DNA from: Acidobacteriota bacterium
Lineage (GTDB): Bacteria > Acidobacteriota > Terriglobia > Bryobacterales > UBA6623
Assembly: GCA_016125275.1 (NCBI GenBank)
Contig: WGMB01000003.1
Span: 682,001 to 746,000 of the forward strand
DNA length: 64,000 nucleotides
Direction of reading: 5' to 3'
Below the pieces are notes generated by a model that worked only from the letters and a program-made list of their open reading frames with translations, had not been told where the DNA came from and ran no database searches. The position numbers were made by a program, and so were the translations under genes. Below are positions 36,039-55,950 of the stretch, one piece after another (positions within the stretch are counted from its first letter, which is position 1; each line of letters starts with the position of its first letter).

Positions 36039-36040
36039 GA

Positions 36041-39532: not shown

Positions 39533-41437
39533 CTAATAGTTGAAAATGAACTCGGGGCTGTTCAGCAGCGCCCATTGCAGGTTTTCGAGGCCACGGTCTC
39601 CGTGGCGTTCGAGCTCACCCAGCGCGACGGCCATCTCCTTTTCGAGGGGCCGGCGGGAGAGGGTGGCGCGGTAGATCTTCTCGACCAGCGAGCGCTCGAC
39701 AGCGATCTGGATCTCCGCCTCTTCGGCGTCCCGGCCGGTGGCGGCGCGGATGGCCTGGGCGGCGGTGATGCGCTCCTGCTCGCGGCCGTCGAGCAACTGC
39801 TCCACGCGGCTTGCGCCCTGCGCCTTCACGCGGTCGAGCACGACGTCGGAGTTCATCATCAGCATCGCCTGCATCGACGAAGAGGGCACGCGGGTCGGCA
39901 TTTCGTCGCGGATCTGCTGGCCGAAGGCGCGCATGAACTCGGCGACCTCGCCGGGGGCCTCGGCCGGGTCGAGCATGTCGCGCGCCATGCCGACCTCCAC
40001 CACGCCGGCTTCGTACTCGCCGGGCTTGGCGGTGGCCGTCACGATGGCGTCGTGGAGCTGCGTCGGGCCGAGCAGCCGCACGTACTTGCGAGCGAAGTAG
40101 TCGCCGTACTCGGGCTTCCACTCGCCGTCGAACTTCGACGAGAGCTGGTAGGCGCTCGAATTCATGATGCGCCGCACCAAGCGCTTGAAGCTGAAGCCTC
40201 CAGCCTGGAAGTCCTTGGCCAGGTCATCGAGCAGCGCCGGGTCCTTCGGCTGGACCGTCCAGCCCTCGGGCAGATCGTCGCTGGGGTAGTAGCGCTTGAG
40301 GTCGAAGTCGTCGACCGGCTCCACGATGCCCACGCCCATCAGCTCCGCCCAGATGCGGTTGGTGAGGGCCCGCGAGAACTGGATGTCGGCGGTCAGGATG
40401 CGCGCCAAGGCTTCGCGAGGGTTCTCGCCGGGCCGCGGCGACTCGTCGCTCAGGATGAACTTGGGCGTGTTGGAGCCCCCGGTCCGCGGCACCCGCACGA
40501 TGCTCTCCGCCGTGGTCGGATAGCCTTCGGCGATGTCGTCCACGGTGTACTCGGTGGGCACCTGGAAGCCGTTCTCCCAGTTCATGACCATGCGGGTGTT
40601 GCCGAAGAAGGCGGCCTGCTGGAAGAACTCCTCGCGGGTCTTGGAGGTCGAGAAGAGGTTGACCTGCTCGAGGTGGTGCGCGCCGTCGTGGCAGGAGAAG
40701 CAGCCGATATTGAGCCCCAGCAGCACTTTCGAGGACGTGATGGCGAACTCGTCGAGCGCGTCGGGCCGGTTGACGATGTCCTCGGCGTCGGGCGTGTCCG
40801 GATCGTCCTTGGCCTTGACGAAGTCCCGCGCGAAGTAGAGCGCGCCGGGGGCGGAATGGCTCGTCTTGGCGCTCTGGGTCAGCAGGTCGCGGACGACGTC
40901 GGCGTAGGAGCGGTCCAGCCGCAGCCACTCTTCGACCCAGAAGTGGAAGAGGTTCTTGCCCGACGCCATGCGGTTGCCGGCGCGGAACAGGTCCTCGAAG
41001 TAATAGGACCAGCGATGCACGAAGTCTTCGCTGTCGACGAGTTGGTCGATGAGCTTCTCGCGCTTGGCCGGATCAGCGTCCTGCACGAAGGCCAGCGACT
41101 CCTCGATGGTGGGGATGCGGCCCACGGCGTCGAGATAGGCGCGGCGGACGAACTCTTCGTCGTTGGACAGCGGAGCGTGCGGGATGCCGTCGCGCTCGAT
41201 GCGGCCGAAGACGCGCTCGTCGATGAAGTTGCGGCGAGCCACCGGGGCGGGCGAGGCTTCGCCGGGCCGCAACGAAGCCGCCTCGGCGGTGATCTGCTCG
41301 GCGATCTCCGACGGCGTGGGGCCGGTCTGCTCGATGGCGCGATGGGCGCGCTCGGTTCGCTCACGAGCCTCCGGAGTCAGCTCCTGGGCGAAGCCGGAAA
41401 CTCCCACAACGAGCGACAAGACCAGCAACTTACGCAT
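39533..41437 (-). CDS. Secreted DUF1549/DUF1553 protein with CxxCH motif
   Basis: 634 residues with signal peptide KLLVLSLVVGVSGFAQ. DUF1549 occupies about 70-290: IDERVFGRIERDGIPHAPLSNDEEFVRRAYLDAVGRIPTIEE, EKLIDQLVDSEDFVHRWSYYFEDLF and a CFSCH motif that could bind haem c. DUF1553 follows (REALARILTADIQFSRALTNRIWAELMGVGIVEPVDDF, SFKRLVRRIMNSSAYQLSS, RKYVRLLGPTQLHDAI). Such proteins are abundant in planctomycetes as cytochrome-like partners of DUF1501. The start overlaps the end of the FAD oxidoreductase gene by 8 bp. An electron acceptor role for the adjacent oxidoreductase is a possible link. Confidence 0.87.
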   Translation of the reverse strand: MRKLLVLSLVVGVSGFAQELTPEARERTERAHRAIEQTGPTPSEIAEQITAEAASLRPGEASPAPVARRNFIDERVFGRIERDGIPHAPLSNDEEFVRRAYLDAVGRIPTIEESLAFVQDADPAKREKLIDQLVDSEDFVHRWSYYFEDLFRAGNRMASGKNLFHFWVEEWLRLDRSYADVVRDLLTQSAKTSHSAPGALYFARDFVKAKDDPDTPDAEDIVNRPDALDEFAITSSKVLLGLNIGCFSCHDGAHHLEQVNLFSTSKTREEFFQQAAFFGNTRMVMNWENGFQVPTEYTVDDIAEGYPTTAESIVRVPRTGGSNTPKFILSDESPRPGENPREALARILTADIQFSRALTNRIWAELMGVGIVEPVDDFDLKRYYPSDDLPEGWTVQPKDPALLDDLAKDFQAGGFSFKRLVRRIMNSSAYQLSSKFDGEWKPEYGDYFARKYVRLLGPTQLHDAIVTATAKPGEYEAGVVEVGMARDMLDPAEAPGEVAEFMRAFGQQIRDEMPTRVPSSSMQAMLMMNSDVVLDRVKAQGASRVEQLLDGREQERITAAQAIRAATGRDAEEAEIQIAVERSLVEKIYRATLSRRPLEKEMAVALGELERHGDRGLENLQWALLNSPEFIFNY

Positions 41438-43400
41438 AGCAACGCACCTCGAAGACTCGCGCCTGGGCGCCGCGGTTGGCGGCTTGCACGTGAATTCGGA
41501 TGGCCCGGGCTTGGACCGGTTCGAAGCGATGACGGCGCAGCCGTTGGTGGTTGCCCGTGACGCGTTCCAGCTCGATCAGCTCGGCGTCCGGCGCTGTCTT
41601 GTAGGAGACAGTATAGTCCTTCGCCGTCTCCGGCTGAGGACCGCGAATCATGTTGTCCTGCACCGAGTCGGCGGCCGAAAGGGTCAGCTCGCGCTGGAAG
41701 CCGGAGTCGAAGGTCAACTGCACCTCGCTGATCGCCTGGGGCTCGTCCCAGCTCAGCTCGATCCAGGCGCCCTGGTCGCCCTGCAACCGCTCGGTCCAGC
41801 GGTGGACCTCGACGTTTCCGCGGGAGATGATGTCGCGCGTGACGCCGTCGAGCACCAGCTCGGGCTTGGCGTCGCGCTCATAGCCGGAGGCGGAGACCTT
41901 CGCCCGCCGGGCGATGTCCTTAGGGTCGCGGTTAACGGTGTTCTTGATGGTGGCGTCGTCGCGCAGCAGGGTCTGCTGCAGCTCACTCAGCAACGCCTTG
42001 TTCTCGTAGACGGCGCGCGGCTCGACGCCCTCGCGGACGCAGATGGCCGCCGCCGCGCCCACCGCCTGCCCGATGACGGCGCAAGTCGCCATCACGCGGG
42101 TAGAGGTGAAGGCCACGTGCGAGGCCGAGATGTTGCGGCCCGCCATGAACAGGTTGGAGACGTTCTTCGAGTACATCGAGCGCAACGGCAGGTTGAAGAC
42201 CTCGTCGGTGCGGATGGCGGTGTTCGGCGGCAGGTCGGAACGATCGAAGCCGCCGGGCGGGTGGTCGTCCATCGGCCAGCCGCCGTAGGCCACCGCGTCT
42301 TCCCACTGGCCGTTCTCGAGGTCCTGCTGAGTGACGATGACGTCGCCGACCATGCGGCGGCTGCCGCGTTTTCCTGGCATCATGCCCACCCAGTCCAGGC
42401 CCCAGTTGGCCGAGGTCGGGTGGTCGCCGGAGTTCTTGATGTAGTCCCAGACGCCCATCGTGATCGACAGCAGCTCGAAGCGAATGAGCTCGTTGTCGCG
42501 GATGGTGTCCTTGTCGCCGCCCCACTCGATCCACCAGTAGCCGTACTCCCAGGAGCGGATCTTGCGCTTGGCCAAGTGCTCGGCGGTCACCTTGCGGGCC
42601 CACTTGGGCGGCGTGAAGGGGATCTCGCGGCCGTAGTCGCGGGCGGTGAACAGGACGCTCGAGCCCAGCGTCTCCTCGTCGGCCTTCACCGGGGCGAGAG
42701 TCTCGCCGAACTCGGCGCGCTCCTCTCGGCCGGTGCGGAACTCGGCGCCGGCTTCCAGCCCCAGGCGCGAGTCGCCGGTCGAGTCGACGAACAGCTTCGC
42801 CCGCACGCGGTAGACGTGCTCGCTCTTGTCACAGCGCGCCAGCACTTCGGTGATGCGGTCGCCATCCTTCTGCGCAGCGTAGAGCTGGGTTTCGAGCAGC
42901 AGCGTGATGTTGGGCTCGGAGATGACCTTGTCGTAGAGCAGCAGATCCCACAGCTCGAAGGTCCGCTGCGGGTTGTTGACCGCGTCGTCGAGCCGGATCT
43001 CCTCGAGCAGGCCGCTCTCGCGCCAGCCGGGCCGCCCTTTGTGGCAGTTGGCGCCGACGACGTGCATCTTCACTTCCGACGACGAGTTGCCGCCCAGCCG
43101 CGAACGATCCTGAACCAGCACGACCTTGGCGCCGTTGCGCGCCGCCTGCAGGGCGGCGCAGACTCCGGCCAGGCCGCCGCCGGCGATCAGGATGTCGGTG
43201 TCGAGATCCACCAGCGTCAGGTGCGGCTCGCCATCGAGCCGCTTGCTCAGCGGAACGTCCGGCACGATGCGGTCAAACGATTGCCGGATGCGGTCGGTTT
43301 GCGGGACCGCCGGCAGGAAAGCCGCGGCCGGAATTCGGTCGGCGAAGATCGTAAGGGAGTACCCTGCGAAGCCGGCTCCTAGAAAGTCGCGTCGTTTCAT
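41430..43400 (-). CDS. Tat-exported FAD-dependent oxidoreductase with C-terminal discoidin-like domain
   Basis: 656 residues from ATG 43400, which overlaps the stop of the NHL gene (ATGA). The Tat leader is MKRRDFLGAGFAGYSLTIFADRIPAAA. The dinucleotide-binding motif TDILIAGGGLAGVCAALQAARNGAKVVLVQDRSRLGGNSSSEVKMH starts near residue 68, and VDSTGDSRLGLEAGAEF and NLFMAGRNISASHVAFTSTRVMATCAVIGQAVGAAAA complete the FAD_oxidored family. The last 150 residues (IELSWDEPQAISEVQLTFDSGFQREL.., ..QARAIRIHVQAANRGAQARVFEVRCY) look like an F5/8-type carbohydrate-binding domain. It probably oxidises a sugar-like substrate in the periplasm. Confidence 0.88.
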   Translation of the reverse strand: MKRRDFLGAGFAGYSLTIFADRIPAAAFLPAVPQTDRIRQSFDRIVPDVPLSKRLDGEPHLTLVDLDTDILIAGGGLAGVCAALQAARNGAKVVLVQDRSRLGGNSSSEVKMHVVGANCHKGRPGWRESGLLEEIRLDDAVNNPQRTFELWDLLLYDKVISEPNITLLLETQLYAAQKDGDRITEVLARCDKSEHVYRVRAKLFVDSTGDSRLGLEAGAEFRTGREERAEFGETLAPVKADEETLGSSVLFTARDYGREIPFTPPKWARKVTAEHLAKRKIRSWEYGYWWIEWGGDKDTIRDNELIRFELLSITMGVWDYIKNSGDHPTSANWGLDWVGMMPGKRGSRRMVGDVIVTQQDLENGQWEDAVAYGGWPMDDHPPGGFDRSDLPPNTAIRTDEVFNLPLRSMYSKNVSNLFMAGRNISASHVAFTSTRVMATCAVIGQAVGAAAAICVREGVEPRAVYENKALLSELQQTLLRDDATIKNTVNRDPKDIARRAKVSASGYERDAKPELVLDGVTRDIISRGNVEVHRWTERLQGDQGAWIELSWDEPQAISEVQLTFDSGFQRELTLSAADSVQDNMIRGPQPETAKDYTVSYKTAPDAELIELERVTGNHQRLRRHRFEPVQARAIRIHVQAANRGAQARVFEVRCYA

Positions 43401-44296
43401 GGTTTTGAGCCTCCTGCGGGTCGAAAGATCTGGACACGGGCTCCGTTCACCTCGGCAACGTAGAGCCGGCCGTCGGGGCCGGTCGCCATCAGGTGCGGCA
43501 GCTTCAGCATGTCCGCATTGCCCCACTGCTTGACGAGCTTGCCGTCGGTGAGGCGTAAGTGAGAGATCGTGTTGGCGTCGCCGTCGGAGACGAGCAGCTC
43601 GTCGCCCACGACGAGCACGCCGAAGGGGTTGCCGAAGCCTCCCCAGGCCGCGATGAACTGGCCATCGGGCGAAAAAACTTGAATGCGGTTGTTGCCGCGG
43701 TCGGCGACGTAGATGCGGTCGCGCGAATCGATGGCAATGTCGTGCGCGGCGGCGAACTGCCCTTCGCCCTTGCCCTTCGAGCCCCATTGCTGCTTGAAGG
43801 TTCCGTCAGCGGCGCGGCGCACGATACGGCCGTTGCCGGCGTCGGCGATATAAACGTCGCCGTTGGTGGCGAACACGAGGTCGTCGGGCGAGCGAAACAC
43901 ATCCGGGCCGTCGCCCGGGGTCGCTACCAAGCCCCAGTAGCCGAGCAACTCGCCTTGCGGCGTGAAGCGGTAGACGCAGTGACCGGCGTTGTCGGTCGCC
44001 CAGACGTTGCCGTCGGGGCCCAGGCGCAGGCCGTGCGCGGTGCGGAACATCTCGTCGCCGAAGGCGTTCTCGAGGCGGCCATCCTTGCCGAAGACCAGCA
44101 AGGGCGGCTCTCCGCGGTGCAGGACGTAGACCCGGCCCTGGGCGTCCACTTGGACCGAGGACATCGCGCCGAGCCGGATGGAGGAGGGAATTTCGACGAA
44201 GCCCTCCGAAATGTAGGGATCCGCCGCCTGGAGGCTGACGGCGACAAGCGCCGCCAGCCCCCAGAAGCGAAGTTGGGTTGGAACTATGCGATCCAC
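43397..44296 (-). CDS. Secreted NHL-repeat beta-propeller protein
   Basis: 299 residues with a signal peptide (FWGLAALVAVSLQA). Six NHL-type blades can be read, such as VQVDAQGRVYVLHRGEPPLLVFGKDG, LRLGPDGNVWATDNAGHCVYRFTPQGE, FATNGDVYIADAGNGRIVRRAADG, IAIDSRDRIYVADRGNNRIQVFSPDG and MATGPDGRLYVAEVNGARVQIFRP. It could be a sugar lactonase-like enzyme or a binding protein; no catalytic residues are certain. The gene starts 1 nt after the TonB receptor stop and shares ATGA with the FAD oxidoreductase gene. Confidence 0.88.
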   Translation of the reverse strand: MDRIVPTQLRFWGLAALVAVSLQAADPYISEGFVEIPSSIRLGAMSSVQVDAQGRVYVLHRGEPPLLVFGKDGRLENAFGDEMFRTAHGLRLGPDGNVWATDNAGHCVYRFTPQGELLGYWGLVATPGDGPDVFRSPDDLVFATNGDVYIADAGNGRIVRRAADGTFKQQWGSKGKGEGQFAAAHDIAIDSRDRIYVADRGNNRIQVFSPDGQFIAAWGGFGNPFGVLVVGDELLVSDGDANTISHLRLTDGKLVKQWGNADMLKLPHLMATGPDGRLYVAEVNGARVQIFRPAGGSKP

Positions 44297-44297
44297 G

Positions 44298-47200
44298 TTA
44301 GAAGATCAACTTCAATCCGAACTGAATGACCCGAGCGTCCCGCGACGCCGTAATCGTGCCGAAGCTGCCGCTGGAGTTCTTGCCATCGGGGCCGGCCACG
44401 AAGCTGTCGTTCACCAAGTCGTAGTTGGTGTGATTGAGGAAGTTGAACGCCTCGGCGCGGAACTGCACCGTCAGGCGCTCGCTGACGCGAGTGTTCTTGA
44501 TCATCGACAGATCCCAGTTGATGACGCCGGGGTGGCGGACATCGGGCAGGGAGCGGCCGACATTGCCGAAGGTGAACGGCGCCGGGTTGACGAACTGCGA
44601 AGTGTCGAACCACTGGGCGGCCGTGCGTTGGCCGCTCGGCAGCGCCGCGCTGACGCCGGTCGAGTCGGGACGATCCGCGGCGAAGTTGCTGGCGCCCCGC
44701 ACCGTGATCGGCAAACCGGACTGCATGGTGCCGATGGTGTTGAGCTGCCAACCGCCGATGATCTTGTTCACAACGGCGTTGCCGCCGTCAAAGCGCTGCC
44801 CCTTGCCGAAAGGCAACTGGTAGACGCCGCTGATGACCAAGCGCCGCGACACGTCGGTCGGATCGATGCCGCGCTGCGACTGCCGATTGTAGAGGCCGTT
44901 CTGGAAGGAGTTCTCGTTGACCTGCTCGACGGGACCGAAATTGACCGGGTTGGCGAGCGAGTCGGAGATCTTCTTGCCGCCGGTGAAGGCGACGTTGAGC
45001 AGAAGCCCCTGAGTCAGGCGCTTCTTGACGTTGATCTGCACCTGGTGCGAGATGTAATTGCCCATCAGCGGGTTGCTGACATTCACGCTGTTGTAGCCGG
45101 GGAAGGCCTTCAGCGTCTGTTCGCGCTGGATGGTCGCCGCACCGAGACCGCCCGGCACTTGGCCGGCCAGCGGGTTGGGGACCAGATCGTTGAGAGACTG
45201 GCCCAGCTGCAGACGCAGCGCCGGGTCGAGCTGATTGAGGTTGTAACCGCCCGAGATGAAGTTGTTGCCCTTGTTGCCGGCGTAGGTGACGTCGAACATC
45301 CAGTCGCCGATCTGGTGCTGCACGCCCAAGCTCCACTGCTGGGTCATCGGCGTGGTGCCCTTGGACTCGGTCATGTTGACGCTCTGTCCGAGGCGGCCGT
45401 CAGGACCGGCGGTACGGCCCGGCGACTCCGACGGAGCGAACGGGAAGCCTTCCGCGAACTGGAACGCCTTCTGGTTCGTCGGCGCCGAGTAGGTCGTGCG
45501 GGTCGACGAGAACAGGTTCACGTCGCCCAGGAAGTTCCGCCAGAAGATTGACGGGTAGAAGATGCCGTAGCCGCCGCGAAGCACGGTCTTGCCCCGGCCG
45601 GTCAGGTCGTAGGCAAAGCCGAACCGCGGAGCGAAGTCGTTGTGATCCTCGTTGCGGAACGAGCGCGGCTGTCCTTCGTAGCCGGCGTACACCGTGCAGC
45701 CCTGAATCCCGCTGGGCAGCGTGCAGGTCGGGTCGAAGTTGATGTGGCCGTCGTAACGCTCCACGGGCTTGGACTGGAAATCGTAGCGCCAACCCAGGTT
45801 CAGGGTCAGGCGCTGGGAAACCTTCCAGTCGTCCTGCACGAAGAAGCTGATGGTGTGGCCTTGCCAGGAATTGCCCAGGATGCGGTCGATGTAGGCGCTG
45901 CTGACATCGCCCAGCAGGAACTGAGCCATCGTGGAGCCGGTCCCGCCGGGCGACTGCGGGTTGGTGGTCAGACCGCCGAAGCTGTAGTTGCCCGAGAGCG
46001 CCGCACCCTGGCGGTTGCCGCCATAGAGGTCGCGGTAGTTGGCCCCAATCTTGATCGTGTGATTGCCGGCGACTTTCGTCACCATGTCCTGAATGTCCCA
46101 GTTCAGCGAGCTGCGCGCGCCGGCCGCGCCGCCGCCGATGGCTCCGAAGCCGAAGTTGATGTTCGGCATCTGGTCTTGCGGAACGATCGAGGGCAGGCCC
46201 AGCTTGCTCGGCCAGTCCTGACCGTAATTGACGGCCGTGAAATTGAACAACTGACGGCTCACGCCGACGCGAAGGTTGTTGATCAACGTCGGAGAGAACG
46301 TGTGCGTATCCGATACCACCGCGTTGCGGTTCGTCTGATCGTCCGAACGGTTGCTGCCGACGGTCGGGTCGGTAAACAGGCTGTTCGAGCTCGGCGAGTG
46401 CTCGGCCTGGGTGTAGCGGAAGAAGATCGAGTTCTTCGAGCTGATCGTGTGATCGATCTTGCCGTTCCACTGCGTCCAGTTGGTCGAGGACAGCGACGAG
46501 TACTGATAGTTCTGCGTGTAGGTGTTCGGGTTGTTCGGCGCCCGGTTGGGAAGCGGCCAGAAGTCGACGATCTGCGGCGACACAGGGTCGAAACGGCTCT
46601 GCGGCACGATGTTGTTCGCGAACGGATCGCGAATCACACCGCCGCCATTGGGGTTGGGACGCGTGGTGGTCGGGTCGTAGACCGGCACGAAGGCGCCCGC
46701 CGAGGTCTTCAGCTCACCGAAGTCGCCGCTACGAAACGGGGCGATCGGCACCGAGTTGATGCTCGGCGTGCTCTTGCGCAGGCGATACTCCTCCCAGTTG
46801 AAGAAGGCGAACGTCCGGTTCTTGATGATCGGGCCGCCCAGGGAGACGCCGTACTGGTTGTAGCGCAGCGGCAGCTTCCGGGTGGCGAACGCGTTGCGCG
46901 CGTCGAAAGCATTGTTGCGCAGGAACTCGTAGGCGGTGCCGTGAATCTCGTTCGTTCCGGAGCGTGTGACGAGGTTGACGGTGCCGCCTGCGGTGAACCC
47001 AAACTCGGCCGACATGGGACCGGACTGCACCTTGAACTCCTCGACCGCGTCGACGGCCGGCGGGATGCCGACTTCGCCCACGTAGCTCAACGTGTTGTTG
47101 TTGCCGTCGAGCATCTGCTGGTTCATGGAGTTCGGGCTGCCGTTGATCGAAATCGACGAAAGCTGAATGCCGCGGTCGCCGAACCCGGAGTTCGTGGGAC

Positions 47201-47693
47201 CGGCGTTGGAGACGACGCCCGGGTTGAGCATCGTGAGAGCAAGGGCCGAACGGCCGTTGATCGGCAGATCCGAGACGCGCTTGCGCTCGATGACGGCGCC
47301 GAGAGACGCGCTGGATGTATCGACCAGCGCCGCGTCGGCGCGCACCTCGACGACTTCGGCGACTTGGCCGATCTCGAGGGTTAAGTTGACTTGTGCGTTC
47401 TGATTGACCAGAAGCGTCACGCCGCTGCGCAACGCCCGCTTGAAGCCCGAGCTCTGGGCGGAGATCTCATAGGATCCCACCGCCAGACCGGGCGCCGTAT
47501 AGAAGCCGGATTCGTTGGTTGAGGTCTTGAAGGTCGCGTTCGTGTCGACGTTCTTGACTTCGATCTCCGCTCCTGGGATGGAGGCCCCTTGCGGGTCCAA
47601 TACCGTCCCTGAGATTGTTCCTCCGCCTTGCTGTGCGAACGCACCGGCGGTTGCGAACAAAAGTAGCGCCACGTGGCGCACCCCACCATTCAT
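44298..47693 (-). CDS. TonB-dependent receptor, Oar-like (copy 1)
   Basis: 1131 residues from ATG 47693, after the RBS AGGAGG; a longer frame to 47852 is rejected. Signal peptide VALLLFATAGAFAQ; a carboxypeptidase-regulatory-like domain at about 24-110 (GTISGTVLDPQGASIPGAEIEVKNVDTN); a plug (VVEVRADAALVDT, IERKRVSDLPINGRSALALTMLNPGVV, VEEFKVQSGPMSAEFG); and a long barrel ending IQFGLKLIF. It should bind and import a large substrate across the outer membrane using TonB energy. It heads the sugar-acid operon, with 1 nt to the next gene. It is nearly identical along its whole length to the next upstream gene. Confidence 0.92.
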   Translation of the reverse strand: MNGGVRHVALLLFATAGAFAQQGGGTISGTVLDPQGASIPGAEIEVKNVDTNATFKTSTNESGFYTAPGLAVGSYEISAQSSGFKRALRSGVTLLVNQNAQVNLTLEIGQVAEVVEVRADAALVDTSSASLGAVIERKRVSDLPINGRSALALTMLNPGVVSNAGPTNSGFGDRGIQLSSISINGSPNSMNQQMLDGNNNTLSYVGEVGIPPAVDAVEEFKVQSGPMSAEFGFTAGGTVNLVTRSGTNEIHGTAYEFLRNNAFDARNAFATRKLPLRYNQYGVSLGGPIIKNRTFAFFNWEEYRLRKSTPSINSVPIAPFRSGDFGELKTSAGAFVPVYDPTTTRPNPNGGGVIRDPFANNIVPQSRFDPVSPQIVDFWPLPNRAPNNPNTYTQNYQYSSLSSTNWTQWNGKIDHTISSKNSIFFRYTQAEHSPSSNSLFTDPTVGSNRSDDQTNRNAVVSDTHTFSPTLINNLRVGVSRQLFNFTAVNYGQDWPSKLGLPSIVPQDQMPNINFGFGAIGGGAAGARSSLNWDIQDMVTKVAGNHTIKIGANYRDLYGGNRQGAALSGNYSFGGLTTNPQSPGGTGSTMAQFLLGDVSSAYIDRILGNSWQGHTISFFVQDDWKVSQRLTLNLGWRYDFQSKPVERYDGHINFDPTCTLPSGIQGCTVYAGYEGQPRSFRNEDHNDFAPRFGFAYDLTGRGKTVLRGGYGIFYPSIFWRNFLGDVNLFSSTRTTYSAPTNQKAFQFAEGFPFAPSESPGRTAGPDGRLGQSVNMTESKGTTPMTQQWSLGVQHQIGDWMFDVTYAGNKGNNFISGGYNLNQLDPALRLQLGQSLNDLVPNPLAGQVPGGLGAATIQREQTLKAFPGYNSVNVSNPLMGNYISHQVQINVKKRLTQGLLLNVAFTGGKKISDSLANPVNFGPVEQVNENSFQNGLYNRQSQRGIDPTDVSRRLVISGVYQLPFGKGQRFDGGNAVVNKIIGGWQLNTIGTMQSGLPITVRGASNFAADRPDSTGVSAALPSGQRTAAQWFDTSQFVNPAPFTFGNVGRSLPDVRHPGVINWDLSMIKNTRVSERLTVQFRAEAFNFLNHTNYDLVNDSFVAGPDGKNSSGSFGTITASRDARVIQFGLKLIF

Positions 47694-47726
47694 CTCGAAA
47701 TCCTCCTGTACTCCGGAAGCGCCGCT

Positions 47727-47737
47727 ATTATAACAGA
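47727..47737 (-). promoter_or_regulatory. -10-like TATAAT and operator half-site upstream of TonB receptor copy 1
   Basis: Minus-strand TATAAT (47732-47727) 33 nt before the ATG at 47693. The surrounding ATCTGTTATAA is identical to one half of the 24-bp palindrome upstream of copy 2, but the second half is lost here. No -35 was seen. Confidence 0.35.
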
Positions 47738-47764
47738 TGGATCGGAGGTCCACCTGCCGCTTCG

Positions 47765-47814
47765 GGGTGCAGGAGCACCCACCCGGTAGGCGGCGGGCTT
47801 TTGGGCCCGCCGCC
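47765..47814 (-). terminator. Two hairpins between TonB receptor copies 1 and 2
   Basis: A perfect 10-bp stem GGCGGCGGGC/GCCCGCCGCC with a 6-nt loop (47789-47814) and a second hairpin GGGTGC-AGGA-GCACCC (47765-47780) lie after the stop of copy 2. There is no long T-tract. They could terminate or attenuate transcription into copy 1. Confidence 0.5.
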
Positions 47815-47853
47815 CCCGAAGTGGGGAGCTTCGATGGGATCGGTTGATCCACG

Positions 47854-50800
47854 TTAGAAGATCAACTTCAAACCGAGCTGGATCACGCGGGCGTCCCGCG
47901 AGCTGGTAATCGTGCCGAAGCTGCCGCTGGAGTTCTTGCCATCGGGGCCCGCCACGAACGTGTCGTTCACCAAGCCGTAGTTGGTGTGGTTGAGGAAGTT
48001 GAACGCCTCGGCGCGGAACTGGATGTTGAGCCGTTCCGAGACCTGGGTGTTCTTGATCATCGACAGATCCCAGTTGATGACGCCGGGGTGGCGGACATCC
48101 GGGAGGGAGCGGCCGACATTGCCGAAGGTGAACGGCGCCGGGTTGACGAACTGCGTAGTGTCAAACCACCGGGCGGCCGTGCGTTGGTCGCCGGGCAGCG
48201 CCGCGCTGACGCCGGTGGAGTCCGGACGATCCGCGGCGAAGTTGTTGGCGCCGCGCACCGTGATCGGAATACCGGACTGCATGGTGCCGATGGTGTTGAG
48301 CTGCCAACCGCCGACGATCTTGTTCACGACGGCGTTGCCTGCGTCAAAGCGTTGGCCTTGGCCGAAGGGCAACTGGTAGACGCCGCTGACGACCAAGCGC
48401 CGCGACACGTCGGTCGGATCGACGCCGCGCTGCGCTTGGCGGTCGTAAAGGCCGTTCTGGAAGCCGTTCTCGTTGGTTTGCTCGACCGGGCCGAAGTCGA
48501 CCGGGTTCGCCAGCGAGTCCGAGATCTTCTTGCCGCCGGTGAAGGCGACGTTGAGCAGCAGCCCTTGGGTCAGGCGCTTCTTGACGTTGATCTGCACCTG
48601 GTGCGAGATGTAGTTGCCCATCAGCGGGTTGCTGACGTTGACGGCGTTGTAGCCAGGGAAGGCCTTCAGCGTCTGTTCGCGTTGGATCGTCGCCGCGCCG
48701 AGGCCGCCCGGCACTTGGCCGGCCAGCGGATTGGGGATCAGGTCATTCAAGGACTGGCCCAACTGCAGCCGCAGAGCGGGGTCGACCTGGTTGAGGTTGT
48801 AGCCGCCCGAGATGAAGTTGTTGCCCTTGTTGCCGGCGTAGGTGACATCGAACATCCAGTCGCCGATCTGGTGCTGGACGCCCAGGCTCCACTGCTGGGT
48901 CATCGGGGTCGTCCCCTTGGACTCGGTCATGTTGACGCTCTGTCCGAGACGGCCCTCCGGACCGGCGGTGCGGCCCGGCGACTCCGACGGAGCGAACGGG
49001 AAGCCCTGGGCGAACTGGAACGCCTTCTGGTTCGTCGGCGCCGAGTAGGTCGTGCGGGTGGACGAGAACAGGTTCACGTCGCCCAGGAAGTTCCGCCAGA
49101 AGATCGACGGATAGAAGATCCCGTAGCCGCCGCGCACGACCGTCTTACCCTTCCCGGTGACGTCGTAGGCGAAGCCGAACCGCGGGGCGAAGTCGTTGTG
49201 ATCCTCGTCGCGGAACGAGCGGGGTTGGCCATCGTAGTTGGCGAATACGGTGCAGCCCTGGATGCCGCTGGGCAGCTTGCAGGTCGGGTCGAAGTTGATC
49301 TGGCCGTCGTAGCGTTCGATAGGCTTGGACTGGAAGTCGTAACGCCAACCCAGGTTCAGGGTCAGGCGTTGGGAGACCTTCCAGTCGTCTTGCACGAAGA
49401 AGCTTACGGTGTGGCCCTGCCAGGAGTTGCCCAGAATGCGGTCAATGAAAGCGCTGCTGACATCGCCCAACAGGAACTGAGCCATGTTCGAGCCGGTGCC
49501 GCCCGGCGACTGCGGGTTGGTGGTCAGGCCGCCGAAGCTGAAGTTGCCCGACAGCGCCGAACCCTGGCGGTTACCGCCATAGAGATCGCGGTAGTTGGCG
49601 CCAACCTTGACGGTATGGTTGCCCGCCACCTTGGTCACCATCTCCTGGATGTCCCAGTTGAGCGAGCTGCGCGCGCCGGCTGCGCCGCCGCCGATGGCTC
49701 CGAAGCCGAAGTCGATGTTCGGCATCTGGTCCTGCGGAACGATCGAGGGCAGGCCCAACTTGCTCGGCCAGTCCTGACCGTAGTTGACCGCCGTGAAGAT
49801 GAACAACTGACGGCTCACGCCGACGCGCAGATTGTTGAGCAGCGTCGGAGAGAACGTGTGCGTGTCCGAGACCACCGCGTTGCGGTTGGTCTGATCGTCG
49901 GCGCGGTTGCCGCCCACGGTCGGGTCGGTGAACAGGCTGTTCGAGCTCGGCGAGTGCTCGGCCTGGGTATAGCGGAAGAAGATCGAGTTCTTCGAGCTGA
50001 TCGTGTGATCGATCTTTCCGTTCCACTGCGTCCAATCCGTCGCCGCCACCGACGAGTACTGATAGTTCTGCGTGTAGGTGTTCGGGTTGTTCGGCGTCTT
50101 GTTGGGAAGCGGCCAGAAGTTGACGATCTGCGGCGAGATCGGATCGAAGCGGCTCGACGGCACGATGTTGTTCGCGAACGCATCGCGAATCACGCCGCTG
50201 CCGTTGGGGTTGGCGCGCGTCGTTGTCGGGTCATAGACCGGCACGAAGGCGCCCGCCGAGGTCTTCAGCTCGCCGAAGTCGCCGGTGCGGAACGGGGCGA
50301 TCGGCACCGAGTTGATGCTCGGCGTGCTCTGCCGCAGACGATACTCCTCCCAGTTGAAGAAGGCGAACGTGCGGTTCTTGATGATCGGGCCGCCCAGGGA
50401 GACGCCGTATTGGTTGTAGCGCAGCGGCAGCTTCTTGGCCGCGAACGCGTTGCGAGCGTCAAAAGCGTTGTTGCGCAGGAACTCGTAGGCCGTACCGTGA
50501 ATGTCGTTGGTGCCCGAGCGCGTCACCAGGTTGACGGTGCCGCCCGCCGTGAAGCCGAACTCGGCCGACATGGGGCCGGACTGAACCTTGAACTCCTCGA
50601 CCGCGTCGACGGCCGGCGGGATGCCGACTTCGCCCACGTAGCTCAACGTATTGTTGTTGCCGTCGAGCATCTGCTGGTTCATGGAGTTCGGGCTGCCGTT
50701 GATCGAGATCGACGAAAGCTGAATGCCGCGGTCGCCGAACCCGGAGTTCGTGGGACCGGCGTTGGAGACGACGCCCGGATTGAGCATCGTGAGCGCGAGG

Positions 50801-51249
50801 GCCGAACGGCCGTTGATCGGCAAGTCCGAAACCCGCTTGCGCTCGATGACCGTACCGAGGGCGGCGCCGGAAGTGTCGACCATCGCCGCGTCCGCACGCA
50901 CCTCGACGACCTCGGCCACTTGGCCGATCTCGAGCGTCAAATCCACTTGTGCGTTTTGATTGACCAAGAGCGTCACGCCGCTGCGCAACGCCCGCTTGAA
51001 ACCGTCACTCTGCGCCGAGATCTCGTAGGCGCCTACCGGCAGACCCGGAGCCGTGTAGAAACCTGACTCGTTCGTGGAAGTCTCGAAGGTCGCGTTCGTG
51101 TCGACGTTCTTGACTTCGATCTCAGCCCCGGGGATGGCGGCCCCTTGCGGGTCCAACACTGTCCCTGAGATCGTTCCTCCGCCCTGCTGAGCGAACATGC
51201 CCGCAGTCGTGAGCAACAGTAGCGCCACGAGGCGCACCCCACCTTTCAT
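47854..51249 (-). CDS. TonB-dependent receptor, Oar-like (copy 2)
   Basis: 1131 residues, start MKGGVRLVALLLLTTAGMFAQ after AGGAGG. Domain order is the same as in copy 1, with the same total length and only scattered substitutions (for example RKLPLRYNQYG against KKLPLRYNQYG). DNA identity continues to the last codon and a few bases past it. It is the product of a recent tandem duplication or is kept alike by gene conversion. It has its own good promoter (TTGACA-N18-TAGGAT) with a palindrome at the predicted start of transcription, so it may be the regulated first gene, with copy 1 and the operon following. Confidence 0.92.
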   Translation of the reverse strand: MKGGVRLVALLLLTTAGMFAQQGGGTISGTVLDPQGAAIPGAEIEVKNVDTNATFETSTNESGFYTAPGLPVGAYEISAQSDGFKRALRSGVTLLVNQNAQVDLTLEIGQVAEVVEVRADAAMVDTSGAALGTVIERKRVSDLPINGRSALALTMLNPGVVSNAGPTNSGFGDRGIQLSSISINGSPNSMNQQMLDGNNNTLSYVGEVGIPPAVDAVEEFKVQSGPMSAEFGFTAGGTVNLVTRSGTNDIHGTAYEFLRNNAFDARNAFAAKKLPLRYNQYGVSLGGPIIKNRTFAFFNWEEYRLRQSTPSINSVPIAPFRTGDFGELKTSAGAFVPVYDPTTTRANPNGSGVIRDAFANNIVPSSRFDPISPQIVNFWPLPNKTPNNPNTYTQNYQYSSVAATDWTQWNGKIDHTISSKNSIFFRYTQAEHSPSSNSLFTDPTVGGNRADDQTNRNAVVSDTHTFSPTLLNNLRVGVSRQLFIFTAVNYGQDWPSKLGLPSIVPQDQMPNIDFGFGAIGGGAAGARSSLNWDIQEMVTKVAGNHTVKVGANYRDLYGGNRQGSALSGNFSFGGLTTNPQSPGGTGSNMAQFLLGDVSSAFIDRILGNSWQGHTVSFFVQDDWKVSQRLTLNLGWRYDFQSKPIERYDGQINFDPTCKLPSGIQGCTVFANYDGQPRSFRDEDHNDFAPRFGFAYDVTGKGKTVVRGGYGIFYPSIFWRNFLGDVNLFSSTRTTYSAPTNQKAFQFAQGFPFAPSESPGRTAGPEGRLGQSVNMTESKGTTPMTQQWSLGVQHQIGDWMFDVTYAGNKGNNFISGGYNLNQVDPALRLQLGQSLNDLIPNPLAGQVPGGLGAATIQREQTLKAFPGYNAVNVSNPLMGNYISHQVQINVKKRLTQGLLLNVAFTGGKKISDSLANPVDFGPVEQTNENGFQNGLYDRQAQRGVDPTDVSRRLVVSGVYQLPFGQGQRFDAGNAVVNKIVGGWQLNTIGTMQSGIPITVRGANNFAADRPDSTGVSAALPGDQRTAARWFDTTQFVNPAPFTFGNVGRSLPDVRHPGVINWDLSMIKNTQVSERLNIQFRAEAFNFLNHTNYGLVNDTFVAGPDGKNSSGSFGTITSSRDARVIQLGLKLIF

Positions 51250-51273
51250 ATACGTTCCTCCTGAACATGGGAA

Positions 51274-51297
51274 GACGATCTGTTATAACAGATCGTC
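51274..51297 (-). promoter_or_regulatory. Perfect 24-bp palindromic operator
   Basis: Half-site GACGATCTGTTA and its exact inverse meet without a gap. It spans the predicted transcription start of TonB receptor copy 2. The core TGTTATAACA resembles sites of FCD-type GntR regulators, and such a regulator is encoded in the operon downstream (34051-34749). Half of it survives upstream of copy 1. Confidence 0.6.
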
Positions 51298-51301
51298 GTG
51301 T

Positions 51302-51331
51302 ATCCTATCGGCGGCGGAGGGACGCTGTCAA
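51302..51331 (-). promoter_or_regulatory. Promoter of TonB receptor copy 2
   Basis: Minus-strand -35 TTGACA (51331-51326), 18-bp spacer, -10 TAGGAT (51307-51302). The start would fall near 51295, inside the palindrome, leaving a leader of about 46 nt with AGGAGG before the ATG. Confidence 0.55.
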
Positions 51332-51388
51332 TGTCCAGACCCCCTGGATAATCCCCCCGATTCTCCGATCGTGGCTTCATCATGACAC

Positions 51389-51429
51389 CGAAGCGTCTCG
51401 GAGGCTGAGAAAACCCCCGAGACGCTTCG
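51389..51429 (-). terminator. Hairpin downstream of TonB receptor copy 3
   Basis: CGAAGCGTCTCGG (51389-51401) pairs perfectly over 13 bp with 51417-51429 around a 15-nt loop containing a T4 run on the minus strand. It lies 32 nt past the stop of the gene at 51462. Confidence 0.55.
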
Positions 51430-51461
51430 AGCCCCCTGTTTTTAGGGTGTTCGAACCACTC

Positions 51462-54400
51462 CTAGAAGAGTAGTTTGAGGCCGAGCTGCAAGACTCGGGC
51501 GTCCCTTGCGGACGTAATTGTTCCGAAGTTGGAGCTGGAATTCGAGCCGTCGGCGCCGGGAACGAACAGGCTGTTCACCATCCCGTAATTCACGTGATTA
51601 AAGGCATTGAAAGCCTCCACACGGAACTGTAGGTTGACGGTCTCGGCGAGGGGGGTGTCCTTGATGAGGGACAGATCCCAGTTGGTGACGCCAGGGTTGC
51701 GAACATCCGGCAGGGCTCTCCCGGTATTGCCGAATGCAAACAGCGCGGGACCCATGAACTGTGCGGTATCAAACCAGTGTTCGGGCGTCCGCTGGTCGCT
51801 GGGGAGGGCCGCGCTGACCCCCGTGGAATCGGGGCGGGTAGCCGCGAAGTTTGTCGCCGGGTTCTGGCTCACCACCACCGGGACGCCGTTCTGCATCACG
51901 CCGATGGCATTGAGCTGCCAGCCTCCGATGAGCCGGTTGAGCCCGTTGTCGGCGTCGAAGCGCTTGCCCGCCCCGAACGGCAGTTGGTAGAGCCCGCTGA
52001 GGACCAGCCGCCGCGAGATGTCGGTCGGGTCGACGCTCTTCTCCGCCCGTCGGTCGTAGAGACCGTTCTGATAGGAGATCGCCGTGACCTGTTCGACGCT
52101 GCCAAAGTTTACCGGCGAATCGAGCGAGTCGGAGATCTTCTTCCCGCCGGTGAAGGCAACGCTGAGCAGAGACCCTTCCGAGAAGCGCTTCTGGACGTTC
52201 ACCTGCACCTGGTGCGAGGCGTAGTTCCCCAGCAAGGGGTCGTTGACCGCCACGGACTGGTAGCCGGGATAGGCAACCAGCGTCTGGGCGCGGATGATCT
52301 GGGCCGTACCGAGCGCGCCGGGGACCAGACCGGCCAAGGGGTTGGGCACCGGGTCGAACAGCGACAGACCCATCTGTTGCATCAGCTGCGGATCGAGCTG
52401 GTTGAGGTCGTAGTTGCCGGAGACGAAGTGGTTGCCCTTGTTGCCCACGTAGGCTACGTCGAGCAGCCAGTCTCCCAACTGGTGCTGCACTCCCACGTTC
52501 CACTGCTGCGACATCGGCGTCGTGCCGACCGGTTCGGTCAGGCTGACGGCCTGCCCCAGGAGTCCGTCGGGCCCGGCCGAACGGCCGATCGCGCCCAGGG
52601 GCTCGAACGGAAGCCCGTCCGAGAAGCGGAAGGCGCTTTGGTTGGTGGGCGCAGTGTAGGTGGTGCGGGTTTGCGTGAACAGGTTGGTGTCGCCGAAGAA
52701 ACTGCGCCAGAAGATCGACGGGTAGTAGATGCCGTAGCCGCCCCGCAGAACTGTCTTGCCCTGTCCGGTGAGGTCGTAGGCAAAGCCGAAGCGCGGTCCG
52801 AAGTCGTTGTAGTCCGCGTCACGGAAAGAGCGCGGCTGGCCCTCGTAGCCGGCGTAGACGGTGCAGCCCTGCACGCCGTTGGGCAGCGTGCAGCCGGGGT
52901 CGAAGTTGATGTGGCCGTCATAACGTTCCACCGGCTTGGACTGGTAGTCGTAGCGCAAGCCGAGGTTGAGCGTCAGCCGGCGCGACAGCTTCCAGTCATC
53001 CTGCAGGAAGAAGCTCAGAGTCTCGCCGCTCCAGGAGTTGCCCAGGGTGCGGTCGAGCGTAGCCGAGGTGACGTCGCCGAGCAGGAACTGCGCCATGTCC
53101 GCGCCGGTTCCGCTGGGGGAACGGGGGTTGCGGGTCAGCCCGGAGAAGCTGTAGACGCCGGCCCGTGCGGGGCCCTGGTTGTTACCGCCATAGAGATGGC
53201 GGTAGTTCGCTCCGATCTTGAGCGTGTGGCTTCGGACGACCCAGGTGGTCATGTTCTGGACGTCCCAGTTGAGCGAGCCGCGGATGCCCGCCTGGCCGCC
53301 GCCCATGATGCCGTAGCCGAAGTTGACCTGCGGCATCTGGTCGCGCGGAATGCTGACCGGCAGGCCCAGCTGGTCCGGCCAGCCCTGGCCGTAGTTGGCC
53401 GGCGTGAAGTCGAACGCTTGGCGGCTCAGGCCGACACGCAGGTTGTTGAGCAGCGTAGGCGTGAAGACGTGAGTGTCCGACAGGACGACGTTCTTGTTTG
53501 TCTGGTCGTCGAGCCGGTTCGACCCCACGGTCGGGTCGGGGAAGATCGCGCTGGTTCCGGTGAAGTGCGACACCTGCGTGTAGCGGAAGAAGATCGTGTT
53601 CTTCTGCGTGAAGCTGTGGTCGAGCCGGCCGTTCCACTGCGTCCAGTCCGTATTCGTCACGGCGGCGTCCTGGTAGTTCTGCGAGAACGTGTAGGGATTC
53701 GACGGCGTCCGGTTGGGGGAGGGCCAAAGGTCGACCATCTGCGGCGAGACCGGATCGAAGCGGCTCTGCGGCACGACGTTGTTCTCGAACGGGTCGCGAA
53801 TGACGCCGCTGCCCGCCGGATTCGGCCGCGTGGTGGCGGGGTCATAGATCGGGATGGGCGTCCCGTTGGCCGTGCGCAGCTCGCCGAAGTCGCCGCGCCG
53901 GAAGGGTTCGATGGGAACCGAAGAGATCCGCGGGGTGCTGCGCCGCAGGCGGTACTCCTCCCAATTAAAGAAGGCGAAGGTCTTGTTCTTGATCAGCGGA
54001 CCGCCGGCGGAGACGCCGTACTGGTTGTAGCGCAGCGGCAGCTTGCCGGGATCGAAGGTGTTGCGGGCGTCGAGGGCGTCGTTGCGCAGAAACTCGTAGG
54101 CGCTGCCGTGCAGCTTGTTCGAACCCGAGCGGGTGACGAGGTTGACGGCGCCGCCGGCGGTGAAGCCGAACTCGGCCGACATGGCGCCGGACTGCACCTT
54201 GAACTCTTCCACCGAGTCCACGGCCGGGGGCACGCCGATCTCGCCCGCATACGACAAGGTGTTGTTGTTGCCGTCGAGCATCTGGGCGTTCATCGAGTTC
54301 GGGCCGCCGTTGATGGACAGGGCCGAGAGCTGCGTGCCGCGGTCGCCGAAGCCGGACGCGGTGGGTCCGGCGTTCGAGATGACGCCGGAGGTCAACAGCG

Positions 54401-54860
54401 TTAGCGCCAGGGCGGAGCGGCCGTTGAGTGGCAGATCTGTAACACGCTTGCGCTCGATGACGGCGCCGACTGTCGCCCCGCCGGCGTCCACCAAGGCTGC
54501 ATCGGCGCGAACCTCGACGACCTCGGCCAACTGCCCCACCTCGAGCGTCAGGTCCACCAAGGCGTTCTGGTTGACTTGCAACACGACGCCGCTGCGCAGC
54601 GCGCGTTTGAACCCTTGCGATTGCGCCGCGACTTCATACGGGCCCACGGACAGCCCCGGCGCCGTGTAGAGGCCGGTCTCGTTGGTCAGCGTCTCAAAGG
54701 TCGCGTTCGTATCCAGGTTGCGGACCTCGACCCGCGCGCTGGGGACGACCGCCCCTTGGGGATCGAGTACCGTGCCCTGGATGGTTCCCGAGCCTTGTTG
54801 AGCGAAAATCGACGGCGACGCCGCCAAGAGCAGCGCAACCAAGTGCACTCCATGTTTCAT
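51462..54860 (-). CDS. TonB-dependent receptor, Oar-like (copy 3, diverged)
   Basis: 1132 residues from ATG 54860 (MKHGVHLVALLLAASPSIFAQ); ATG 54878 is an alternative. It has the same three-part architecture as copies 1 and 2, with clear homology throughout (GTIQGTVLDPQGAVVPSARVEVRNLDTN; IERKRVTDLPLNGRSALALTLL; VLQLGLKLLF at the end) but many substitutions. The barrel loops differ most. It lies 130 nt downstream of the Tat DapA-like gene and may be co-transcribed with it. It probably imports a related but different substrate. Confidence 0.92.
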   Translation of the reverse strand: MKHGVHLVALLLAASPSIFAQQGSGTIQGTVLDPQGAVVPSARVEVRNLDTNATFETLTNETGLYTAPGLSVGPYEVAAQSQGFKRALRSGVVLQVNQNALVDLTLEVGQLAEVVEVRADAALVDAGGATVGAVIERKRVTDLPLNGRSALALTLLTSGVISNAGPTASGFGDRGTQLSALSINGGPNSMNAQMLDGNNNTLSYAGEIGVPPAVDSVEEFKVQSGAMSAEFGFTAGGAVNLVTRSGSNKLHGSAYEFLRNDALDARNTFDPGKLPLRYNQYGVSAGGPLIKNKTFAFFNWEEYRLRRSTPRISSVPIEPFRRGDFGELRTANGTPIPIYDPATTRPNPAGSGVIRDPFENNVVPQSRFDPVSPQMVDLWPSPNRTPSNPYTFSQNYQDAAVTNTDWTQWNGRLDHSFTQKNTIFFRYTQVSHFTGTSAIFPDPTVGSNRLDDQTNKNVVLSDTHVFTPTLLNNLRVGLSRQAFDFTPANYGQGWPDQLGLPVSIPRDQMPQVNFGYGIMGGGQAGIRGSLNWDVQNMTTWVVRSHTLKIGANYRHLYGGNNQGPARAGVYSFSGLTRNPRSPSGTGADMAQFLLGDVTSATLDRTLGNSWSGETLSFFLQDDWKLSRRLTLNLGLRYDYQSKPVERYDGHINFDPGCTLPNGVQGCTVYAGYEGQPRSFRDADYNDFGPRFGFAYDLTGQGKTVLRGGYGIYYPSIFWRSFFGDTNLFTQTRTTYTAPTNQSAFRFSDGLPFEPLGAIGRSAGPDGLLGQAVSLTEPVGTTPMSQQWNVGVQHQLGDWLLDVAYVGNKGNHFVSGNYDLNQLDPQLMQQMGLSLFDPVPNPLAGLVPGALGTAQIIRAQTLVAYPGYQSVAVNDPLLGNYASHQVQVNVQKRFSEGSLLSVAFTGGKKISDSLDSPVNFGSVEQVTAISYQNGLYDRRAEKSVDPTDISRRLVLSGLYQLPFGAGKRFDADNGLNRLIGGWQLNAIGVMQNGVPVVVSQNPATNFAATRPDSTGVSAALPSDQRTPEHWFDTAQFMGPALFAFGNTGRALPDVRNPGVTNWDLSLIKDTPLAETVNLQFRVEAFNAFNHVNYGMVNSLFVPGADGSNSSSNFGTITSARDARVLQLGLKLLF

Positions 54861-54990
54861 CGCAATTCTCCTGCGCACCGCTAGGACGGCTGGGGGCAGG
54901 CGCCGTCTGGGGCGCCAGTCGCCGTACCGTCGCCATCGAACGATTCGGGCGCCCCGGGGATGTCAGCCCGGCTAGGACCGGAAGGGCCGC

Positions 54991-55950
54991 TCAGGCGGTC
55001 AGTTCCGGTCGAACGAACTCATAGGTCGTTCGCAAGGATTCGAGGGCTTTCCCGTCCAGCGGCGGCAGATTGCCGCGCGTGTGATGGTTATGGAAGACCC
55101 CTCGAAGCTGCAAAACATACGAAAGGGTCGGAAATCCGTAGGCCCCCGCCTGCTCCACGAACAATAGAAGTTTACTAAACACCGCGAGCGCCCGATCTGG
55201 TTCATCCGCCTGAAAAAAGTCCCAGACTTTCACGTAGAGATCCACCCATCCTGTGGCCGGCATATTGCCGGCAACGTCGCGCATCATCTCGTCGATCAGG
55301 TTGCGGCCGTGGTTGCCGGAGAAGACTTCGGGGCGGCCTCCGCGCCTGGCCTGATTGAACTCCACGAGGCGGGAGACGGGGTTGCCCGCCTCGTCTTTCA
55401 CAAAGCGCAATGTAGGGATTCGCCGCGCCATCCCCAGTACGAATTCGACGGTCATATTACCGGTCGTCTGCACGAACATCGGCAGGTCGCACTCGTGAGC
55501 GATAGCGGCATAGTAGCGCTCGACCTCGGCCAAGTCGAACTCGCCCTGGTCGCGCGTGGGCAAGGCGATGATGGCGTCGGGACGCAGCTTCTGGGCATGC
55601 CGGGCATAGCGCACGGCCGTTTCGAGGTCGGGCCCTTGGACGCCGATGACGAGCTTGGGCGCCAACCCTTGGGAGGCCTTCTTGAGGGCTTCGGCGCCGG
55701 CGAGGCGCTCATCCACGCTCAGGTATTGATACTGGCTGGCGCGCTGCGGCCAGACCATGCCGTGCACCCCGCAGCGCGCCGCAAAACGCGCCTCCTCGGC
55801 CAGAGTCTCCAGGTCGACCGCGTCGTCCTCTGTGTAAGGCGTTTGCAGGATGGGATAGACGCCTCGAAACTGGGCGTCGGAGGCGTGGAGCGAGTCGAGC
55901 AGCAGGGCGCTCGAGCCCAAGGCTCCGGCGAAGAACTGGCGGCGGGTCAT
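54991..55950 (-). CDS. Tat-exported DapA/NanA-family protein
   Basis: 319 residues from ATG 55950 with GGGAGG upstream. The Tat leader is MTRRQFFAGALGSSALLLDSLHASDA. The barrel follows the exported homologue at 8404-9366: FRGVYPILQTPYTEDDAVDLETLAEEARFAARCGVHGMVWPQRASQY, LVIGVQGPDLETAVRYARHAQKLRPDAIIALP, the Schiff-base Lys in LRFVKDEAGNP, and VQTTGNMT where the Tyr motif would be. These two exported proteins are more like each other than like the cytosolic DapA paralogue at 33167. The neighbouring TonB receptor suggests a role in periplasmic handling of an imported acid or sugar. Confidence 0.86.
   Translation of the reverse strand: MTRRQFFAGALGSSALLLDSLHASDAQFRGVYPILQTPYTEDDAVDLETLAEEARFAARCGVHGMVWPQRASQYQYLSVDERLAGAEALKKASQGLAPKLVIGVQGPDLETAVRYARHAQKLRPDAIIALPTRDQGEFDLAEVERYYAAIAHECDLPMFVQTTGNMTVEFVLGMARRIPTLRFVKDEAGNPVSRLVEFNQARRGGRPEVFSGNHGRNLIDEMMRDVAGNMPATGWVDLYVKVWDFFQADEPDRALAVFSKLLLFVEQAGAYGFPTLSYVLQLRGVFHNHHTRGNLPPLDGKALESLRTTYEFVRPELTA

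Follow-up and report, generated by a model that had tools for sequence, protein, structure and literature searches.

A palindrome at a receptor promoter as the probable autoregulatory operator of a GntR/FCD regulator in an Acidobacteriota genome

We propose that a gap-free palindrome in a 64-kb stretch of an Acidobacteriota genome (the window) is very probably an autoregulatory operator, bound by the FCD-GntR regulator that is encoded downstream in the same operon (34051-34749) and probably working as a repressor road-block that a sugar acid would release. Sequence comparison supports this proposal in that the site and its position are conserved, the site is co-distributed with the regulator, related sites lie beside the regulator in the rearranged clusters of a sister family, and site and recognition helix differ together.

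Because a regulator dimer bound directly to the 16-bp core, with one subunit on each ATCTGTTA half, would cover the transcription start of a TTGACA/TAGGAT promoter, the simplest reading is that it represses by blocking initiation. Release of the regulator from the DNA by a sugar acid or by a breakdown product would then result in joint induction of the outer-membrane receptors, the inner-membrane transporter, the dehydratases, the aldolase and the regulator, which, lying in the operon, would repress its own synthesis. An aldonate or a breakdown product is the probable inducer, given the similarity, in all cases below the curated cut-offs, of the dehydratases to galactonate dehydratase and of the MFS transporter to the galactonate transporter family.

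The palindrome and its promoter

The 24-bp palindrome GACGATCTGTTATAACAGATCGTC occupies 51274-51297, has no strand of its own and contains the core ATCTGTTATAACAGAT at 51278-51293. On the minus strand, it is preceded at a distance of 4 nt by a -10 box TAGGAT (51307-51302), which an 18-nt spacer separates from a -35 box TTGACA (51331-51326). A sequence-only reading of this stretch had described a perfect 24-bp palindrome following a TTGACA-N18-TAGGAT promoter. That description was accurate: the palindrome is real and without a gap, and the promoter reads into the receptor gene 47854-51249, whose ATG (51249) lies 24 bp beyond the end of the palindrome. The placement of the palindrome at +1 is deduced from the distance to the -10 box, so that the start position is a predicted one.

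Although the palindrome is the sole perfect one of at least 18 bp in the window, and 24-bp palindromes are expected only 0.014 (base composition) to 0.017 (first-order Markov) times per 64 kb, the expectation for the 7.55-Mb genome is approximately 1.7, and length by itself is therefore no proof of function. A sigma-70 scan of 43000-55200 returned TTGACA/TAGGAT as the sole minus-strand match; because the scan total of 2 compares with 1.1 expected by chance, this match also proves little alone. Between receptor copies 3 and 2, the window additionally holds a strong inverted repeat (51382-51431; CGAAGCGTCTCGG / CCGAGACGCTTCG) that is not followed by a T run on the gene strand.

The 18-mer GATCTGTTATAACAGATC occurs once in the 7.55-Mb source genome, even if 3 mismatches are allowed. 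The core 10-mer TGTTATAACA is found at 3 exact places and at 4 with one mismatch. We dropped genome-wide over-representation of TGTTATAACA as proof, as these 7 places (at most 1 mismatch) compare with 9 for the reversed pattern, and the significance of the site rests on its position and conservation instead.

The proposed operon and the receptor copies

The palindrome heads a row of minus-strand genes. Receptor copy 2 (47854-51249), the first gene of the controlled operon, combines a CarboxypepD_reg domain with an OMP_b-brl_4 barrel and is followed 160 bp downstream by receptor copy 1 (44298-47693), which is 93% identical to it. Next come a 299-aa ORF that begins at the copy 1 stop and looks, by eye, beta-propeller/NHL-like (43397-44296), an FAD-dependent oxidoreductase (41430-43400, with its ATG placed by eye at 43400), a PSCyt2/PSD1 (DUF1549/DUF1553) protein (39533-41437) and an FGE-sulfatase-domain protein (37324-39408). 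The row continues with an enolase-superfamily dehydratase (36041-37327) and an MFS transporter (34746-36131), for which the nearest NCBIfam models are galactonate dehydratase and D-galactonate transporter, respectively, both below cut-off. It ends with the GntR/FCD regulator that we propose as the binder of the palindrome (34051-34749), a DHDPS-family aldolase/dehydratase (33167-34054) and a second enolase-superfamily dehydratase (31971-33158). The regulator matches PF00392 with 79 bits (cut-off 27) and PF07729 with 78.3 bits (cut-off 24.3), as is expected of an FCD-GntR protein, and carries the recognition segment SQMPVRQ at residues 56-62.

Because the gaps along this row do not exceed 160 bp, a single operon fits, in which transcription would read through all genes. 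A search of the 160-bp gap between copies 2 and 1 listed no terminator; the first codons of copy 1 hold two overlapping 5-pair stems.

Copy 1 is preceded by a degenerate operator, ATCTGTTATAATAGCG (47723-47738, minus strand), that matches 13 of 16 positions, with a complete left half and 5/8 positions in the right half. One of the changes (C to T) recurs in the operator of genome G017, and the TGTTATAAT within the degenerate operator could be an accidental extended -10. It had been suggested that loss of a half-site would uncouple copy 1 from control, and this is not borne out. Because no -35 or -10 boxes are present at the matching place, 13/16 operator positions are kept, and the gene lies 160 bp downstream on the same strand, copy 1 is most simply the second gene of the same operon, within which it should remain coupled. 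Separate control is more likely for copy 3 (51462-54860, minus strand; 70% identical to copy 2), upstream of which we looked for an operator and found none. The three receptors lie in tandem at 44298-54860, a product of duplications; relatives have one receptor at that level of identity.

Conservation of the site and co-occurrence with the regulator

We searched the whole genomes of an 18-genome family set with ATCTGTTATAACAGAT at up to 2 mismatches. This gave 18 places, spread over all 12 genomes in which the FCD-GntR regulator has an ortholog, whereas the 6 that lack one have no such place; the odds of such a 12-6 split arising at random are 1/18564 if relatedness is ignored, and several of the 12 regulator genomes are close relatives. 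The reversed control matched 5 places, spread over 3 genomes that include one regulator genome. The exact CTGTTATAACAG occurs at 11 places in 9 of the 18 genomes (9/12 with the regulator, 0/6 without; reversed control, 2 genomes).

Twelve of the 18 ATCTGTTATAACAGAT places are the orthologous receptor promoter. At this promoter, TTGACA (11) or TTGACC (1) is found 36-38 bp upstream of the 16-mer in all 12 genomes, a -10 box matching 4/6 at a spacer of 17-18 is present in 9, and the 16-mer starts 7-8 nt past the best -10 in 11 (10 nt in G016). The boxes thus lie at a fixed distance upstream, as in a sigma-70 promoter with an operator at its start site. The weaker promoters are those of G017 (-10 of 3/6), G002 (3/6, spacer 19) and G016 (5/6, spacer 15). 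Nine of the 11 exact CTGTTATAACAG places are at the orthologous receptor, each after TTGACA, with the 16-mer approximately 14-28 bp upstream of the receptor start.

The mean frequency of the majority base is 0.95 within the 16-mer versus 0.62 and 0.58 in the two flanking 16-bp stretches, and the consensus of the 12 sites is.TCTGtTATAACAGAT, that is, GT-N4-AC with C before TGT. The receptor-promoter sites are exact or one mismatch away from the 16-mer in 9 genomes, and three genomes have operators that deviate at two positions: ATCTGAAATAACAGAT in G002, which is a hybrid ATCTGAAA+TAACAGAT, ATCTGGTATCACAGAT in G014 and TTCTGTTATAATAGAT in G017.

The 12 regulator orthologs were found at E 6.2e-56 or better, and the remaining 6 genomes, two of which are incomplete (G006, 74%; G011, 87%), have distant paralogs at best (no better than E 4.5e-15, or no match at 1e-10). 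Regulator and site share a gene cluster in 11 of the 12 regulator genomes; in G008 they are on different contigs, with the receptor and the regulator each close to a contig end. The order receptor-PSD1-FGE-dehydratase-MFS-GntR-DHDPS-dehydratase is preserved in most family genomes, and the first dehydratase was not seen in the clusters of G016 and G002. In G014, the regulator lies directly before the receptor, and the MFS, DHDPS and dehydratase genes were not observed in the 19.9 kb analysed of its 21.1-kb contig. G015 keeps the receptor (66%), PSD1 and FGE genes and has no regulator ortholog; no site was found within 3 mismatches in the 19.9 kb around its receptor nor within 2 mismatches genome-wide. 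Of the other five regulator-less genomes, four lack a receptor match at E 1e-200, and in G011 only a 45% paralog was found.

This comparison backs the choice of the FCD-GntR protein as the best candidate binder, as had been put forward from the window alone. It also supports the accompanying suggestion that the regulator would control uptake and catabolism jointly, given that one site-headed cluster holds all of these genes in most relatives.

Sites at other genes

Exact CTGTTATAACAG places away from the orthologous receptor number 2 of 11. One, the second in the source genome (L006 6817-6832; G000:C9), follows a TTGACA-N17-TACGAT promoter and heads a HXXSHH / PSCyt3-PSD / sulfatase gene row, which is a candidate for a further target of the FCD-GntR regulator; none of the five scanned proteins near this site is a regulator. 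At L056 7230-7400 (G010:C76), a PSCyt1/PSCyt2/PSD1 protein is preceded in frame by the promoter, operator and first codons of the receptor, as though another gene had captured the complete control unit. As far as we looked, the palindrome was not found at unrelated genes together with another conserved regulator, an arrangement that the sequence-only reading had named as evidence against its assignment.

Five of the 18 two-mismatch places (G000:C10, two in G003 and one each in G005 and G016) were left as chance. Two of these extra places are approximately 155 and 270 bp upstream of distant receptors and the others are at unrelated reading frames; at G000:C10, TTGACA lies approximately 35 bp downstream of the 16-mer, and inspection by eye of those in G003, G005 and G016 revealed no well-placed TTGACA promoter. 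One loose match in G003 (L231 3267) is approximately 30 bp before the start of a ParA-like ATPase, among further inverted repeats, and one in G016 (L234 3373) is in an A/T-rich stretch; both may be due to chance or to another system.

Half-sites of the sister family

In the wider order, the regulator is present (E 1e-40 or better) in 75 of 257 genomes. Outside the family, just 3 of 239 genomes contain the exact CTGTTATAACAG, and all three of the corresponding 3-kb loci lack a match to a cluster gene. Because CTGTTATAACAG is therefore useless as an order-wide marker, we studied the sister family with its own motif, using 40 of 65 regulator loci from 39 genomes. None of these 40 loci has the 16-mer within 3 mismatches near the regulator. 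The sister-family half-site, ATCTGAAAT, which has ATCTG..A in common with the family site, is concentrated upstream of the regulator, receptor and DHDPS genes.

Across the 40 loci, matches to TCTGAAAT numbered 42 in the 150 bp before cluster genes and 12 elsewhere (1.74 vs 0.018 per kb). This count is exploratory, as the loci that served for counting had also served for choosing the motif. A listed cluster gene has an upstream match in 30 of the loci and none in the other 10. The matches within 150 bp precede the regulator (14/40), DHDPS (12/31), rec1-type receptor (8/11) and rec2-type receptor (3/6) genes; the six remaining gene kinds have none. With six shuffled versions of ATCTGAAA, between 0 and 2 upstream matches were obtained. 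The reversed control of TCTGAAAT gave 3 matches upstream and 3 elsewhere (0.12 vs 0.004 per kb); because it is also richer upstream, such A/T-rich words appear to be commoner there anyway. The half-sites occur in inverted, direct and spaced arrangements, often, as judged by eye, before a -35-like box.

Alternative explanations of the site

Several of these sister-family sites are, by eye, just upstream of the -35-like box, as might be expected if the regulator binds but chiefly activates, or changes sign with its ligand. We consider this unlikely for the family site, which overlaps the inferred start, where a bound dimer should block.

The palindrome might also act as RNA, forming a 5′-terminal hairpin that stabilises the mRNA or shields the ribosome site. 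The leader in the window indeed folds at -19.6 kcal/mol (z -4.4), and that of G014 has a z of -3.7, but the remaining two of the four folded leaders, from G007 and G002, fold no more stably than shuffled sequences (z -0.5 for each). What is conserved is a constant sequence rather than a variable paired stem, and the sister-family half-sites are direct and spaced as well as inverted, all of which makes a role as RNA very improbable.

Zur, the zinc regulator of the Fur family, has boxes that contain TGTTATA...TATAACA, and zinc-uptake TonB receptors are among its targets. The present site has TGTTATAACA in common with Zur boxes, Zur papers are, as far as their excerpts go, among the listed matches for papers containing TGTTATAACA, and the controlled gene encodes a TonB-type receptor. 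However, neither gene content nor distribution fits: the site heads a sugar-acid-type cluster, a FUR-family protein (Zur and Fur undistinguished) is found in 18/18 family genomes whereas the site is confined to the 12 with the FCD regulator, and in the sister family the half-site ATCTGAAAT accompanies the FCD gene and its neighbours. We therefore give binding by Zur very little credence. Our search of the open literature gave no paper on a Zur consensus with a GTTATA palindrome.

Least credible is that TGTTATAAC is itself an extended -10 and the palindrome a by-product of promoter sequence, as the resemblance to TGnTATAAT and the TGTTATAAT kept at copy 1 might suggest, given that this element is broken in G002 (TGAAATAAC) and G014 (TGGTATCAC) and that TTGACA or TTGACC stands 36-38 bp upstream of the 16-mer in 12/12 promoters.

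Recognition helix and change of specificity

Returning to the regulator as the binder of the site, we compared its helix between the two families. Residues 57, 58 and 62 are Q, M and Q in 11, 12 and 10 of the 12 family orthologs, respectively (residue 57 is E in 1), and L, T and H in 36, 39 and 23 of 40 sister-family proteins. Residue 47 is P in 10/12 of the family and D or E in 33/40 of the sister family. Both G002 and G014 combine Arg47 with a different residue 62, and both have altered inner operator bases; the helix of G002 is mixed (R47, E57, M58, H62). With three deviant operators (G002, G014 and G017) and two deviant helices, the helix of G017 being unchanged, the odds of the overlap are 3/66, a relation seen post hoc and calculated with relatedness ignored.

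Aligning the regulator by hand to FadR, we take residues 57, 58, 62 and 47 to be helix-turn-helix (HTH) positions 38, 39, 43 and 28. In a study of the FadR subfamily, positions 28, 38 and 39 of FadR are described as making specific base contacts, and positions 28 and 39 as correlating with operator bases across the subfamily (PMC4494728). The co-change of site and helix, with few events behind it, points to direct contact by this regulator.

We tentatively suggest, at somewhat less than even confidence, that within one orthologous, probably Bryobacterales, FCD-GntR lineage the half-site may have shifted between ATCTGAAA and ATCTGTTA together with residues 47/57/58/62, with living intermediates such as G002, whose operator combines a half-site of either kind, and that new genes (G000:C9 and G010:C76) may have joined the regulon via the whole promoter-operator unit. 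If true, this would provide a natural series in which repressor and operator change specificity stepwise. Two families that differ in parallel in half-site and helix, together with a hybrid, are good material for studying the evolution of regulator specificity.

Comparison with known systems

DgoR, ExuR and UxuR are named as FadR-subfamily (FCD) GntR regulators of sugar acids (PMC4494728). As with such sugar-acid regulators, the protein described here combines GntR and FCD domains, would locally control dehydratase, aldolase and transporter genes and has a palindromic A/T-rich operator at the promoter, with autoregulation implied. Unlike in their operons, TonB-type receptors and a PSCyt2/PSD1 protein are included.

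Two further differences from the same source (PMC4494728) concern specificity. The usual operator of the FadR subfamily is TKGT-N2/3-ACMA, whereas in the family studied here it reads CTGT-N4-ACAG and in the sister family ATCTGAAAT; and the position of the base-contacting Arg45 of FadR, mapped by hand to residue 57, is occupied by Gln or Glu in the former and mostly by Leu in the latter. Both the operator pattern and the recognition-helix Arg are typical, not obligatory, features of the subfamily. NanR and BioR are named there as exceptions to the operator pattern, and unusual sites are given for NanR (direct repeats TGGTATAW), BioR (TTATMKATAA), FarR and NagQ of the FadR and HutC subfamilies (PMC4494728). 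Our sites share with these four the departure from the family operator, and the sister family also has direct repeats; by eye, ATCTGTTATAACAGAT and ATCTGAAAT nevertheless read differently from their motifs.

Our searches of the open literature returned no paper joining GntR/FCD, TonB-dependent receptor and palindromic operator and none on a Bryobacter GntR operator site; a search for an Acidobacteria GntR/TonB-dependent receptor regulon gave only an unrelated match. Searches with the sequence letters gave no GntR operator paper among the matches listed. Systems of this kind are well known; the novelty lies in the specificity of the operator and in its change along with the helix. To our knowledge, little regulatory work exists for Acidobacteriota-type bacteria, for which the present analysis supplies a checkable operator, regulator and operon. 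It also connects TonB-type receptors, and a PSCyt/PSD protein that is poorly understood, with genes for sugar-acid-type breakdown.

Other repeats and palindromes

Several other repeats were seen along the way. In the source genome, the third exact TGTTATAACA (on C20) has other repeats around it: TTCTGAAATCGGAAC occurs twice near it (L065 7738-7852; G000:C20), once within a larger palindrome, and these repeats are perhaps the site of another regulator or the end of a mobile element. At loci L131 and L133, an inverted repeat CATAC...GTATG is located approximately 100-150 bp upstream of position 10001, before a relative of the receptor, in stretches analysed that have no FCD ortholog. In three relatives, paralogous receptors (44-46% identical) at L228 8975, L229 10277 and L230 11116 have another palindrome, TGATATATCA, which follows a TTGACA promoter. 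An FCD paralog (28%) is encoded approximately 4 kb from the receptor at L228, and it possibly forms with TGATATATCA a sister regulator-operator pair.
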